From positions 89,292 through 153,291 of the forward strand of contig JAGADF010000016.1 in NCBI GenBank assembly GCA_017613735.1: a stretch of DNA of 64,000 bases. Reading direction: 5' to 3'. This document shows, in pieces, positions 14,368 to 41,339 of the stretch. The position numbers were made by a program, and so were the translations under genes. Origin of the DNA: Clostridia bacterium (GTDB lineage: Bacteria > Bacillota > Clostridia > Oscillospirales > Acutalibacteraceae). The notes beneath the pieces are model-generated. The model was not told the DNA's origin, searched no databases, and worked only from the letters and a program-made list of their open reading frames with translations. Position 1 is the stretch's first letter. Each line of letters opens with the position of its first letter.

Positions 14368-15731
14368 TTATTTACCTACGCAGAAACGCGAAAATATTTC
14401 GTTTATAACCGAATCCGACGCCTTTTCGCCCGTGAGAACGAGAAGGGAGTCGATAGCCGAATCGACCGTGACGTTGACCGCATCAAGCGTGACGCCGTTT
14501 TTAAGGTCGTTTTCAGCCTGAATAATATCTCTTAAAGCCTGCTCGCAGCAGCTTTTCTGCCTCGCATTTATAAGAGAGGCGACCGACGGGTCAAAATCGG
14601 CTGTCTCGAGAGCTTTTTCGATAATGTCACAGAGCTTTTGTCTGTCGTCGGGATTTTTTGCGCTGATTTCAACCAAGTTTTCAAAGTTTTGTATAATTAA
14701 ATTCTTCTGCGCCTTTTGCTCAAGGTCGGCTTTGTTGAGAATTGCAACACATTTCTTGTTTTTTACAAGGGAGACAATCTCTTCATCCTCTTGTGTAAAA
14801 GGTCGGGACAAATCGAAAACCGCGAGGGCAAAATCTGCGCTTTCAAGCCATTTTTTCGCCTTATCGACGCCGATTTTTTCAACCTCGTCCTCCGAGGAAC
14901 GAAGTCCGGCGGTATCTGCAAGGCGAAGGGTTGCCGCGCCGATAACCGCGGTTTCTTCAACGATATCACGGGTTGTGCCCTCGACCGCGGTGACGATTGA
15001 CCTGTCCTCGCCGAGAAGCATATTCATCAGAGTCGATTTTCCGACATTCGGCTTTCCTACAATCGCGGTACGCACTCCGCCTATAACCGCCTTTCCCGTA
15101 TCGAAACGCGATATAAGATTTTCAAGCTCCTTTTCGGCGGTGTTAAGATTTTCAACTAATTCGCCGCTTGTAAGCTCTTCAATTTCATCGTCGGGGTAGT
15201 CCACCCACGCCGCAAGCGAAGCCGAGGCGGAAATGAGAATACCGTTGATTTCGGCTATTTTTTTACTCAGCGCGCCCTCAAGAGTGTTGTAAGCCGCCTT
15301 CGTTTCCTGCTCGGAATGAGAGGAAATGATGTTCATAACCGATTCTGCGCTCGTCAAATCCATTTTACCGTTGAGGAAGGCTCTTTTTGTGAATTCGCCC
15401 GCAGGGCGGGGAGAGCGCCCGCAGAAAGCACGCTGCGAAGCACCTCACGCGTTACAAAAAGCCCGCCGTGACAGTTAAGCTCAACAACGTCTTCGCCCGT
15501 ATAGCTTTTCGGAGCTTTAAAAACAAGAGCCACAACCTCGTCGACGGGTTCGCCGTCCTCGCTCTTAACGGAGCCGAGCAACGCCGAATAGCCCCTTAAA
15601 TCCTTAAGGAGCCTGCCGTTTTTCGATATAAACACCTTGTCTGCGATTTCAACGGCGTTTTCGCCCGAAATACGCACGATACCTATTCCGCCGGGTGAAA
15701 GACCGGTCGAAATTGCGGCAACAGTCGACAT
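14368..15731 (-). pseudogene. mnmE: tRNA modification GTPase MnmE, split by a single-base frameshift
   Basis: Two reading frames together make a full MnmE of about 454 residues. The first (15731 to 15354) encodes the N-terminal tetrahydrofolate-binding domain (STGLSPGGIGIVRISG, PKSYTGEDVVELNCHGG) and loses the family frame after VLSAGA. The second frame picks up GEFTKRAFLNGKMDLTSAES and continues with the G domain (GKPNVGKST, NKAD) and the C-terminal FCVGK. Restoring one base near 15401 (CTGCGGG to CTGCCGGG) gives GALPALPGEFTKRAFLNG, which aligns without gap to the family GARLAEPGEFTKRAFLNG. It is either a recent mutation, a sequencing error in a GC-rich patch, or recoded. Start ATG 15731, ribosome site AAAGGTG. 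Confidence 0.88.
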
Positions 15732-18305: not shown

Positions 18306-18440
18306 TTAATAAGAGAGCTGTTTTCTGCCCTTTGCTCTGCGGCGGGCAAGAACCTTTCTGCCGTTTCTGTCGGACATTCTTTTGCGGAAGCCGTGTTCCA
18401 TCTTGCGATGGCGCTTCTTGGGCTGGTATGTTCTCTTCAT
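18306..18440 (-). CDS. rpmH: 50S ribosomal protein L34
   Basis: 44 residues, translated by eye: it begins [20 protein letters not shown] and ends [12 protein letters not shown]. The protein is Lys/Arg-rich and sits on 23S rRNA near the exit tunnel. Start ATG 18440 follows GGGAGGAAAAGTG. Its promoter lies about 100 bases upstream and it leads the leftward rnpA-yidD-yidC-jag unit. The rpmH-dnaA divergent arrangement marks the replication origin in most Firmicutes. Confidence 0.97.
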
Positions 18441-18535
18441 CACTTTTCCTCCCTGAAAACTATATTATACCTGCACGAACTGTTTTGCAGGATTTTTGCA
18501 TACTGACACAGTATAAAATTACACTGTGAGAATGT

Positions 18536-18565
18536 ATTATATAACAAAAAAGCCGTTTCTGTCAA
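18536..18565 (-). promoter_or_regulatory. SigA-type promoter of rpmH
   Basis: Minus strand TTGACA (18560-18565), 18-base spacer, TATAAT (18536-18541). A leader of about 85 bases follows, containing a CACAGT.../ACACTGTG hairpin around 18505-18528. A second TATAAT nearer the gene (18464-18469) lacks a -35. Confidence 0.75.
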
Positions 18566-18851
18566 TGATTTTATTTAAGGTAAAAGCGGCTCTTTCAGCC
18601 AAAACACAACTTTTGTGACAAAAGAGGGGAGTATCACAAGATATTGTATAAAGAAACGAAAAAAATATTTTGAGGTTTTAAACATTTTTTAATAAAAATG
18701 TCAATTATAGGTATTATTTATTTAATATAATTATATATTAATTTAAATTTACCTATTGTAATACGGCGCAAATAATGATATAATGAAACGAATGTTTAAA
18801 TAAGTAAAAAGTTTTGAACAATTTTTGAATAGAAAAGGAAGGATGTTGAAA
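18566..18851. other. oriC: Upstream part of oriC (rpmH-dnaA spacer)
   Basis: A strongly AT-rich spacer upstream of dnaA, including an almost GC-free run at about 18710-18750. I found no TTATCCACA or one-mismatch copy. Instead TTTTAAACA occurs at 18676-18684 and TTTTGAACA at 18812-18820, with a weaker inverted copy at 18793-18801. The same motif recurs three times between dnaA and dnaN. I infer this to be the upstream (incAB-like) DnaA-binding part of a bipartite origin. The dnaA promoter lies within it. Confidence 0.6.
18756..18784 (+). promoter_or_regulatory. SigA-type promoter of dnaA
   Basis: TTGTAA (18756-18761), 17-base spacer, extended TGA-TATAAT (18776-18784). The TTTTGAACA copy at 18812-18820 falls about 25 bases downstream of the predicted start site, where a bound DnaA could repress its own gene. 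Confidence 0.75.
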
Positions 18852-20165
18852 ATGGATTCCTTTATGGAAATCTGGCGGGAAGTGCTTGACTACTGTTCTC
18901 AAAAGCTTAACGAAACCGCCTTTAACCTCTGGCTCGCTCCGTTAAAACCCGTCAGCTTCGAAAACGATATGGTGACGCTTTTTATCAACGACGAGTTCAA
19001 GCGCGGAATAATTTATGAAAAGTATCAGAACCTCTTATCCGAGGCTTTTGAAAAAAAGGTCGGCTTTGACGTAAAAATATATATTACGACCGATGAAAGC
19101 AAGCTGAACGAAAATACTTCATCCCCGGCGGAAAAAAACTTTTCGTTAAAAGAAATTATCAACGACTTCGCTTCATTCGTTGTCGGCCCGTCGAATAAAT
19201 TTGCTTACGCAGCCGCTAAAAACGTAGCTTCAAATCCCGGAAGATTTTACAATCCTCTTTTCATTTACGGACGAAGCGGTCTGGGTAAAACCCATCTTCT
19301 CAACGCAATCTGCCTTGAGGTTGAAAAGTATTACCCGAATGCGAATATTATTTACACAACGAGTGAGAACTTTACAAACGAGCTTGTTTTCTATCTTCAG
19401 ACACAGAATACTCAGGCTTTCCGTAATAAATACCGTACCTGCGACGTGCTTTTAATAGACGATATTCAGTTCATCGCGGGTAAAACACAGACGGAGGAAG
19501 AATTCTTTCACACCTTCAATACCCTTTATGAGAACGGTAAACAGGTTGTATTGACTTCCGATAAGCCGCCTAAGGAAATTCAAAGCCTTGAGGACAGACT
19601 GCGTTCTCGCTTCGAAAACGGTCTTTTAGCGGACATTCAGCCGCCCGATTACGAAACGAGAATGGCTATTATAAAAAATAAGGCTAAATATTTCGACCTT
19701 GAGCTTTCAAACGAAATTGTGGATTATATCGCCGATAAAATCAAAAACAACGTCAGACAGCTTGAGGGAGCGGTTAAAAAGATAAACGCCCTCTGTCAGA
19801 TGCATGGGACGGAACCGACGATAGAAATCGCCTCGGAAGCCATTAAGGACATTCTTAATAATTCAAGACCCGTTGAAGCGACGATTGAAATGATTATTGA
19901 CCAGACCGGAAGAACCTTCGGCGTAACGCCTGAAAACATCCGTTCCGAAAGACGTGACGCTTCCATTGTCAACGCCCGTCAGGTCGCGATGTATATTATG
20001 AGAGAAATCGCCGATATGTCGCTTATAGACATAGGAAAGGTCTTCGGCGGAAAAACCCATTCAACCGTCAAGCATTCAATTGACGAGGTTGAAAAGAAGA
20101 TGGCCTCAAATTCTTCGTTCAAATCAAACGTCCTTGATTTAATTAAAAATATTCAGGAGTTATAA
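18852..20165 (+). CDS. dnaA: Chromosomal replication initiator DnaA
   Basis: 437 residues. Domain I at 1-80 (IWREVLDYCSQKLNETAFNLWLAPL), short linker, AAA+ ATPase with Walker A YGRSGLGKTHLLNAI, Walker B VLLIDDIQFIAGK and the sensor/arginine-finger region ENGLLADIQPPDYETRMAII, then the DNA-binding domain IV. The signature loop reads FGGKTHSTV (399-406) where E. coli has GGRDHTTV; Thr402 replaces Asp433, a base-contacting residue. ATG 18852 is 9 bases after AAGGAAGG; an upstream ATG would abut that site. It opens the rightward dnaA-dnaN-S4-recF-remB-gyrB-gyrA series. Confidence 0.97.
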   Translation: MDSFMEIWREVLDYCSQKLNETAFNLWLAPLKPVSFENDMVTLFINDEFKRGIIYEKYQNLLSEAFEKKVGFDVKIYITTDESKLNENTSSPAEKNFSLKEIINDFASFVVGPSNKFAYAAAKNVASNPGRFYNPLFIYGRSGLGKTHLLNAICLEVEKYYPNANIIYTTSENFTNELVFYLQTQNTQAFRNKYRTCDVLLIDDIQFIAGKTQTEEEFFHTFNTLYENGKQVVLTSDKPPKEIQSLEDRLRSRFENGLLADIQPPDYETRMAIIKNKAKYFDLELSNEIVDYIADKIKNNVRQLEGAVKKINALCQMHGTEPTIEIASEAIKDILNNSRPVEATIEMIIDQTGRTFGVTPENIRSERRDASIVNARQVAMYIMREIADMSLIDIGKVFGGKTHSTVKHSIDEVEKKMASNSSFKSNVLDLIKNIQEL

Positions 20166-20388
20166 ACAAGTTTTTATTTTTAAACATCGAGTTTTGAACA
20201 TACACTTTTTTATGTATATTCGTTAAACATCCGTGAAAAAGTTTTGAAAGTAAAAATTTGCCTCTGAATTGTTTAATATTAACTGTTTTTCCTGTTTTAA
20301 ACAATTTAGACAGCCCCTACTAATACAACTATTTTTATTAATTATTTTTTTATAAAAAACAAAAAAATTTTTAAAGGAGATAAACAGT
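20166..20388. other. oriC: Downstream part of oriC: probable unwinding region between dnaA and dnaN
   Basis: TTTTAAACA at 20178-20186, TTTTGAACA at 20192-20200 and TTTTAAACA at 20295-20303, all on the plus strand, with weaker copies at 20221 and 20242. After the last copy come a short GC patch (CAGCCCC, 20311-20317), a CTA-CTA-ATA-CAA-CTA run from 20317, and a 45-base AT tract. Box, GC cluster, CTA-type triplets (DnaA-trio) and AT tract is the order described for the basal unwinding system of Bacillus. I infer this is where strands open. Confidence 0.65.
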
Positions 20389-21498
20389 ATGAAATTCACT
20401 TGCAATACACTCGCATTAAATGAGGCCTGCCAGAACGTTCAGAGAGCGGCTTCTTCAAAAACAACTCTTCCCTCAATAGAAGGCATTCTTCTTAAAGCCG
20501 AAGGCAATTCGCTTACTCTTACGGGTTATGACCTTGAGGTAGGTATTGTAACAAGCATAGAAGCAAGAGTTGAAGAAAGCGGAGCAATTATTATCAACGC
20601 AAGATATCTTTGCGATATTATCAGAAATCTTCCGTCAGATATCTGCTCAATTTCATCTGACGAGAGACAGACCTGTAAAATTATTTCGGGTGACACGGAA
20701 TACAGCATTATGGGTATTTCGGCTGCTGAGTATCCGGAGCTTCCGTCCGTTTCGGGAGGATTCCCGATTGTTCTTAAGGGCGATATTTTAAAGGATATGA
20801 TAAGAAAGACTTATTTCGCCGCTGCCGATAACGACGCATCAAAAGCGGTTCATACCGGCGTAAAGTTTGAAATAAGAAAGGGATTAATCCGTCTTATCGC
20901 GGTTGACGGCTTCCGTCTTGCAATAAGAAACGAGAGCTTTGATTATGACGGCGAAGAAAAGGATTTTGTAGTACCGAAGAAAACTCTTACAGAGGTTATC
21001 AAGCTTATTCCCGACGGCGATATTACGGTATCAATGGGAGTTGCAAAGAGACATATTCTTTTTGAAATAGGTAATTACAGTATAATTTCACGTCTTCTTG
21101 ACGGTGATTTTCTTGATTATAAATCGGCTGTTCCGTCTCAGAATACAACGACGGTAAGAGCTAATCTCAGAAAGCTTATTGAATCAGTTGAACGTGTTTC
21201 GCTTATTATTGCCGACAGGAATAAAAGCCCCATTCGCTGCATTTTCGATAACGATTTAATCCGCGTTTCTTCTTCAACGACCTTAGGTCTCGCCAACGAT
21301 AAAATGGCGGCAAAGGTTGAGGGAAATAAGGTTGAAATCGGCTTTAACAACAAGTTTTTGCTTGACGCGCTTAAGGTTTGCGACAGCGACGAGGTTCTTA
21401 TTAAGTTAAACGGCCCAGTTCAGCCTATTATCATTGTTCCCAATGAAGGCGACAGCTTCTTATTCCTTGTTCTTCCCATAAGACTTAAGAAGGATTAA
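20389..21498 (+). CDS. dnaN: DNA polymerase III beta sliding clamp
   Basis: 369 residues, the usual length. MKFTCNTLALNEACQNVQRAASSKTTLPSIEGILL, GYDLEVGI, DGFRLAIR and the closing LPIRLKKD (family LPMRL/V) are clear clamp features. The ring holds Pol III on DNA. Start ATG 20389 with AAAGGAGATAAACAGT upstream. It follows the dnaA-dnaN spacer that forms part of oriC, and is followed 2 bases later by the S4-domain gene. Confidence 0.97.
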   Translation: MKFTCNTLALNEACQNVQRAASSKTTLPSIEGILLKAEGNSLTLTGYDLEVGIVTSIEARVEESGAIIINARYLCDIIRNLPSDICSISSDERQTCKIISGDTEYSIMGISAAEYPELPSVSGGFPIVLKGDILKDMIRKTYFAAADNDASKAVHTGVKFEIRKGLIRLIAVDGFRLAIRNESFDYDGEEKDFVVPKKTLTEVIKLIPDGDITVSMGVAKRHILFEIGNYSIISRLLDGDFLDYKSAVPSQNTTTVRANLRKLIESVERVSLIIADRNKSPIRCIFDNDLIRVSSSTTLGLANDKMAAKVEGNKVEIGFNNKFLLDALKVCDSDEVLIKLNGPVQPIIIVPNEGDSFLFLVLPIRLKKD

Positions 21499-40941: not shown

Positions 40942-41339
40942 TTAATTACCTCCCGTTTTTTCTCCTTAGTATTGTGGATTATTACGGGGATTTTATTCAG
41001 TAAATTTTGTCAACTGTGAATTATTACAAAAATTTTTTGCTCATTAATTATACGATTTGTAATATAATCTTTTCACCATTAATGTTCAAAACCCTGTTCA
41101 AAATGTTAATAACTCGGGGCAAATTATGCCTTTTTTCAAGAGTTTTTAACATTTTCGACCGAATTTTCGAAAATTCGCAACTTATTGAAATCGAATACAG
41201 TTAGTTATAGAGGCTTTACTTTTATTACAGGGAGTATCATAAAATCTGCTTGACAACGGCAAAATTATTGTGCAAAATAACATCGTAAATAATACATATT
41301 TTTTTATGCGAATATTTGTGTATTTTTCGGGGTAAAAAA
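40942..41339. other. 398-base AT-rich spacer with paired TTTTGAACA sites and an 18-base palindrome
   Basis: No gene seen. TGTTCAAAA (reverse of TTTTGAACA) occurs at 41083-41091 and 41095-41103, 12 bases apart. The same motif flanks dnaA, so this may be a secondary DnaA-binding cluster. CGAATTTTCGAAAATTCG at 41160-41177 is a perfect palindrome and a likely operator. A promoter for the next gene lies at 41250. Confidence 0.55.
41250..41278 (+). promoter_or_regulatory. SigA-type promoter of the 8-oxoguanine glycosylase gene
   Basis: TTGACA (41250-41255), 17-base spacer, CAAAAT (41273-41278). The -35 is perfect and the -10 weak. Confidence 0.6.

Follow-up and report, generated by a model that had tools for sequence, protein, structure and literature searches.

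We propose that in the window, by which we mean the whole stretch of 64,000 nucleotides that was analysed, the nonamer TTTTRAACA is the DnaA box, that the replication origin lies around dnaA, and that the DnaA residue equivalent to E. coli Asp433 tracks positions 5 and 6 of the box in a switch of specificity that could have proceeded stepwise. Based on the comparison of sequences, we give this joint reading a probability of about 0.8. The DnaA box is commonly regarded as close to universal.

The gene order at the locus is rpmH–dnaA–dnaN. Translation of the DNA upstream of dnaA shows a 44 amino acid, L34-like ORF (18309..18440, minus strand), which we take to be rpmH (ribosomal protein L34) from its likeness to the L34 sequence; rpmH usually lies next to a dnaA origin, on its upstream side. 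The dnaA gene (18852..20165, plus strand) encodes 437 amino acids if translation starts at 18852, though it may also start at the in-frame ATG at 18843, and is followed by dnaN, the gene of the DNA polymerase III beta subunit (20389..21498, plus strand). The cumulative GC skew of the window switches at 18–21 kb, in agreement with a replication start there. Elsewhere on the minus strand mnmE/trmE seems to be split into a TrmE_N ORF (15354–15731) and an MnmE helical/GTPase ORF (14368–15363); the two overlap in different frames, which reflects either a real frameshift or an assembly error.

Five TTTTRAACA nonamers lie on the plus strand, all where the sequence-only reading had placed them: TTTTAAACA in the upstream cluster (18676..18684), in the dnaA–dnaN spacer (20178..20186) and further along that spacer (20295..20303), and TTTTGAACA at 18812..18820 and again in the dnaA–dnaN spacer (20192..20200). 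The clusters flank dnaA, two boxes upstream and three downstream, as in a bipartite oriC, and these five are the only words of the form TTWTNNACA in 18530–18851 and 20166–20388. Both TTTTAAACA and TTTTGAACA stand three mismatches away from the canonical TTATCCACA, keep TT-T--ACA and fall outside the range of a canonical box taken at up to two mismatches. The earlier observation that the spacers flanking dnaA contain no copy of TTATCCACA, exact or with one mismatch, can be widened to two mismatches (18457–18851 and 20166–20388); the nearest one-mismatch copy is at 19718 on the minus strand, within dnaA.

One explanation of such words is chance in AT-rich DNA. The spacers flanking dnaA are indeed ~77% AT, and DNA of this kind should contain some copies of TTTTAAACA taken by itself (in the 17 Thr loci described below, 1.87 are expected and 18 seen). 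Yet an order-1 Markov simulation gives 0.24 expected TTTTRAACA on both strands of the spacers, and five were reached in none of 5000 runs; the rough value of 0.1 at 80% AT in the sequence-only reading was a little too low, while the rarity it pointed to stands. In an anagram control, one other word among the 2520 anagrams of TTTTGAACA, and one other among the 630 of TTTTAAACA, matches the count of the box, and in both cases it overlaps the box sequence. The nonamer might also have been no commoner here than elsewhere, but within the window's non-coding DNA (DNA outside ORFs of 100 codons) the 518 bp at dnaA hold five copies, compared with two in the remaining 5703 bp. The sister genome G033, whose DnaA is 86% identical, retains three of the five boxes (18812, 20192 and 20295); it is without those at 18676 and 20178 and has TTTTAGACA at the latter site. 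Since the relatives already contradict it, the nonamers recurring in four groups, chance is hardly credible.

At 20295–20331 box, GC cluster and DnaA-trio stand in tandem on the plus strand, as in a basal unwinding system. The TTTTAAACA copy at 20295 is the putative first unwinding-site box and is followed by ATTTAGACA (20304..20312), a degenerate second box, and by the presumed strand-opening site (20313..20331), which consists of a GCCC cluster at 20313 and the DnaA-trio CTACTAATACAACTA (20317–20331). This block is also retained in the sister genome, and an unbiased count of 9-mers in the spacers of relatives brings the DnaA-trio to the surface as CTACTACTA/TAGTAGTAG in the Asn, His and Asp classes of residue 433. 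We suggest that the boxes at 18676, 18812, 20178 and 20192 would gather DnaA and that the DnaA-trio at 20317 and the two boxes before it (20295 and 20304) would make up the unwinding site. As part of the joint reading it is most probable that this is a split origin of the B. subtilis type around dnaA. In the available parts of the sources, B. subtilis has a bipartite oriC with a basal unwinding system of boxes 6/7 and DnaA-trios (PMC8287927; PMC10721633), and the two origins agree in their rpmH–dnaA–dnaN order, in having boxes clustered to either side of dnaA, and in a dnaA–dnaN spacer that carries tandem boxes, a GC cluster and a DnaA-trio; the window differs in its box, TTTTRAACA with three mismatches to TTATCCACA, and in a Thr for the Asp of the recognition helix. 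Upstream of dnaA a promoter-like TTGTAA-17-TATAAT (18756..18784, plus strand, 10/12 match) is weak evidence for a promoter, the region holding 5 such sites where shuffled sequence gives 3.0. Because the box at 18812 comes after this match, before the start codon, autoregulation of dnaA through it is plausible.

Another hypothesis is that the nonamers are sites of a different DNA-binding protein, which regulates dnaA. Small clusters are found upstream of other genes too, and three of them, distant from oriC, are seen again in G033, within aligned stretches that are 73–79% identical. They keep 3 of 4 exact boxes at G000 C14:34263–34362, 2 of 2 at C7:42451–42492 and 2 of 2 in a second, intergenic TTTTGAACA pair of the window, 12 bp apart on the minus strand (41083/41095; 41083..41103), and we consider them candidate DnaA regulatory or titration sites. 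The window's pair sits between YpeB-like and 8-oxoguanine glycosylase-like ORFs, near a TTTTTAACATTTTCGACC block that is also kept in G033; the C14 cluster (L044:1264–1363) holds four TTTTRAACA within 100 bp, two per strand, between divergent DUF2975 and helix-turn-helix ORFs. Against a different protein stand the facts that the nonamers retain both TT-T--ACA and the preceding G of Asp-type boxes, that one of them occupies the box position beside the DnaA-trio, and that no Asp-type box remains in the spacers. We regard this hypothesis as very improbable.

A genome-wide motif search, proposed as a check, did show an excess of TTTTRAACA (83 against 28 of the reversed word), but the excess is not diagnostic because every one of the genus's 39 genomes has more TTTTCAACA than its reverse. 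A reversed word makes a poor null, the ratios overlap between Thr/Gln and Asn genomes, and we rejected this enrichment as proof. The same genome has five TTATCCACA against 15 of its reverse, unclustered except for two that lie 471 bp apart within one long ORF. Canonical boxes at a true origin elsewhere would have spoken against the reading; what is found is a DnaA-trio and a skew switch at dnaA.

The window DnaA has the N-terminal, AAA+ ATPase and helix-turn-helix domains (PF11638, PF00308 and PF08299, all above cut-offs), and its residues 1–430 align with the B. subtilis DnaA of PDB 8BTG. In this alignment GGKTHSTV lies opposite GGRDHTTV and Thr402 faces the Asp; Thr402 (codon 20055..20057, plus strand) is therefore the equivalent of E. 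coli Asp433, as the sequence-only reading had it, at a position that is variable in relatives. According to the accessible parts of the literature, DnaA contacts bases through residues 399, 423, 432–435 and 438–439 (PMC5043019), its helix 434–451 reads TnCACA (PMC5742627), and Asp433, which is highly conserved, contacts box position 7 together with Leu438 (PMC8235120, the contact being cited there at second hand). Position 7 is unchanged in the boxes described here. The window DnaA is only 51–55% identical to those of 33 other species placed in its genus (g1), no higher than to other genera of the family, which indicates either that this essential protein evolves fast or that the genus is drawn very broadly.

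In order to compare residue 433 with the box, 258 loci and 30 more from two chosen genera were reduced to 245, which come from the window's family, from its order and from some other named Clostridia; the best named relatives are Merdimmobilis, Bittarella, Massilioclostridium, Acutalibacter and Faecalibacterium, and they suggest a place in the Oscillospiraceae (Clostridia) of NCBI, to which Merdimmobilis is assigned. Seven residues are found at the 433 equivalent (Asp, His, Asn, Thr, Ser, Gln and Lys). Sorted by positions 5–6, the TTWTNNACA words of the spacers fall into three patterns across the 245 loci. Asp and His forms go with CC/CA (132 Asp loci: CA 182, CC 139, CG 4, GA 10, AA 52; 29 His loci: CA 25, CC 25, CG 1, GA 1, AA 7) and Asn forms with CA/CG (33 loci: CA 53, CG 17, CC 2, GA 11, AA 14). 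Thr, Gln, Ser and Lys forms go with GA/AA (17 Thr loci: GA 22, AA 19, CA 7, CC 1, CG 4; two Gln loci: GA 4, AA 5; two Ser loci: GA 3, AA 3; 26 Lys loci: GA 58, AA 46, CA 5, CC 1, CG 3, CT 19). When a locus is called only if it has at least two such words and one dinucleotide type leads, with residue classes that were defined after seeing the data, a purine at position 5 leads in 36 of the 39 called Thr/Gln/Ser/Lys loci (47 in total) against 8 of the 117 called Asp/His/Asn loci (194 in total); before the two chosen genera were added the figures were 17/20 against 8/117. The exceptions are three Thr loci that favour C at position 5, and eight Thr/Lys loci are uncallable. Some Lys loci of g81 (L211, L342, L343 and L344) carry TTATCTACA/TTTTCTACA, with two to four CT words per locus, and these words are a possible further box variant; Lys433 as a specialist for C5–T6, suggested by the four CT words of L211, was rejected, as most other g81 Lys loci have GA/AA with CT in the minority. 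In Asp433 spacers T at position 3 is the rule (TTTTCAACA 157, TTTTCCACA 120, TTATCCACA 19).

The same separation is seen inside the window's genus, for which 39 genomes were available and dnaA was found in 35. Its DnaA proteins are of two kinds, one with GGKT, NGKT or GGKQ before HST or HTT and one with the one-residue shorter FGRNHSTV. TTTTGAACA is present in 15/18 Thr/Gln loci against 4/16 Asn loci, and TTTTCAACA, which is identical to it in composition, in 5/18 against 15/16; GA minus CA per locus separates the two kinds (Mann–Whitney p 2e-5, uncorrected for kinship). An unbiased ranking of 9-mers in the 18 Thr/Gln loci puts GTTTTGAAC first and TTTTGAACA second. Per kb of spacer, TTTTGAACA reaches 1.7 in Thr/Gln loci of the genus, 2.1 in g68 Ser, 2.0 in g81 Lys and 3.5 in g104 Lys loci, against 0.27 with Asn, 0 with His and 0.07 with Asp; inside dnaA it stays at 0–0.05 in the six groups counted. 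The comparison of DnaA with box sequence across the clade, which had also been proposed, thus shows a box that changes with residue 433 both inside and outside the genus. The idea that initiator and boxes have drifted together gains support from, and is extended by, this association in 245 loci, from which a shared history may be read.

More distant Thr/Ser433 forms were sought with a DNA pattern for GG-(K/R)-(T/S)-H-(S/T)-T-(V/I), which misses helices without GG and Ser encoded as TCN; it matched in 9 of 398 genomes of the phylum, and the match is DnaA only at the window's own locus. A second pattern matched in 15 of 394 genomes of the order, 2 of the 15 loci being DnaA and both already in the set.

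It may be argued that the boxes are real DnaA boxes and residue 433 is a passenger, positions 5–6 being set by 438/439 or by other changes in domain IV. This explanation fits the Thr and Gln forms, which always have His439 and nearly always Lys438, a context absent from all Asp, His and Asn loci of the set; for Thr and Gln, 433 is therefore inseparable from 438/439. A published contact of Asp433 with position 7 (PMC8235120, in the part available) also fits it. The Ser and Lys forms tell against it, since their box pattern persists with the neighbouring contact residues fixed (context counts for 432/438/439, made before the last two duplicate loci were dropped). With His438–His439, two Ser loci have GA 3 and CA 0, two Asp loci GA 0 and CA 5, and one Asn locus GA 1 and CA 3. 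With aliphatic 438 and Tyr439, 111 Asp loci have GA 7 against CA+CC 283, and 18 Lys loci still have GA 30 against CA+CC 6. With Lys432, 12 Asp loci stay with CC/CA (GA 2, CA+CC 26), and 27 Lys loci have GA 59 and CA+CC 7; Asp433 with Lys438 (L101) has CA 2 and CC 2. Residue 438 or 432 as sole determinant is unsupported by the L101 boxes, the GA of Lys433 with aliphatic 438, and the CC/CA of Lys432–Asp433. On our reading positions 5–6 would be set chiefly by residue 433, and we find the passenger explanation unlikely.

The box next to the DnaA-trio behaves somewhat differently. A recognisable DnaA-trio was found in 152 of 252 loci, with a box-like word at the fixed distance in 128. In this word C stands at position 6 in 37/68 Asp, 3/12 His, 2/24 Asn and 0/24 Thr/Gln/Lys loci, and at position 5 in 57/68, 6/12, 24/24 and 8/24, respectively; 10/24 Thr/Gln/Lys loci have a purine at position 5. 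From these counts C6 tracks Asp and His, and the unwinding-site box of the recoded lineages is loose at position 5, where the purine rule is carried by the other boxes. In Asn433 loci (for example L023, L025 and L043) the trio-adjacent box is often TTTTCGACA, with CG in 14 of the 24 anchored words; its complement TGTCGAAAA contains what we take to be the Spo0A box core, so a site shared by DnaA and Spo0A is possible.

How many times the change took place was examined in a 67-row DnaA tree from which domain IV had been left out. The recoded rows fall in three separate positions, one for the window's genus, one for g81 and one for g68 together with g104, with Asn, His and Asp forms interspersed, and a single clade of all Thr/Gln/Ser/Lys rows is rejected (AU p 3.9e-6, for a group named post hoc). 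There was therefore more than one event; three is a reading of the tree, and the recoded forms have two or three independent origins. This is the weakest part of our case. An alternative is that unrelated protein and spacer changes in two or three lineages were multiplied by kinship. The tree needs at fewest five changes of residue class and has only three independent contrasts on starred branches, so a sign test cannot reach 0.05, and g68 and g104 lie inside one supported group of ten rows, which points the same way; on the other side, all lineages change in the same direction (the box follows the residue in 2.9 of 3 contrasts on average), and the neighbouring Asn forms have CA and differ again at position 6 (CA 53, CG 17, CC 2). 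We hold this alternative to be improbable, a little more so than a passenger role of 433. Calls of box type at single loci are noisy, the tree showing 15 shifts in box type and five in residue class.

In our preferred reading, with 433 as the determinant, DnaA would recognise the framework TT-T--ACA in the way it does elsewhere, with positions 5–6 left to residue 433. The path may have led from Asp (CC, CA) through Asn (CA, CG and some GA) to Thr, Ser, Gln or Lys (GA, AA). CA would be common to the Asp and Asn forms, and a little GA accompanies Asn (11 words in the 33 loci); where a box can be read by either of two forms, the protein and its sites could change one step at a time. On the tree the Asn forms stand closest to g81 (support 91, not starred), and a supported group unites them with g68 and g104, which fits this order without proving it.

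Departures from TTATCCACA are known in other lineages, and we compare them here with the sources as far as these are accessible. Epsilonproteobacterial boxes with the core TTCAC were footprinted, and their change was attributed to helix-5 of DnaA domain IV (PMC5043019); position 5 is likewise changed and specified, but Asp433–His434 are retained there and 435/438/439 held responsible, whereas here 433 varies and position 6 changes too. In mollicutes TT(A/T)TC(C/A)ACA equals the Asp-type boxes found here, and a phytoplasma candidate motif, TTAGGAACA, proposed from spacer counts at dnaA, has GAACA at positions 5–9 as in TTTTGAACA, with G at position 4 and no DnaA residue linked to it in the part seen (PMC3322544). 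The species-specific boxes of Ori-Finder, such as TTTTCCACA in Cyanobacteria/Chlamydiae and TGTTTCACG, proposed for Bradyrhizobiaceae, are also lineage-specific departures, and none in the excerpts combines a purine at position 5 with an A at position 6 or comes with a corresponding DnaA residue (PMC10225481; PMC2275245). The 12-mer boxes of Thermotoga maritima and their initiator are both far from those of E. coli, the boxes differing in length and core, whereas the window boxes keep TT-T--ACA (PMC4285127; PMC10316083). In the open-licence papers searched, TTTTCAACA is found in two and TTTTGAACA and TTTTAAACA in none, and among the matches listed, as far as their text is available, there is no code linking 433 and box.

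In this group of gut bacteria DnaA seems to follow a natural recognition code, which may have been reached by way of Asn forms. A wider reading, to which we give even odds, is that residue 433 is a natural specificity switch with three box classes, by which initiator and origin were recoded more than once via Asn forms whose boxes overlap those of both neighbouring classes: to Thr/Gln in the window's genus, to Lys in g81, and to Ser and Lys in g68/g104. If this is true, one residue would predict the box of an uncultured genome, and initiator–origin pairs that are mutually blind could coexist. If binding confirms it, an essential initiator can switch its specificity while keeping its origin, and this would explain why a search of this origin with TTATCCACA yields no boxes.
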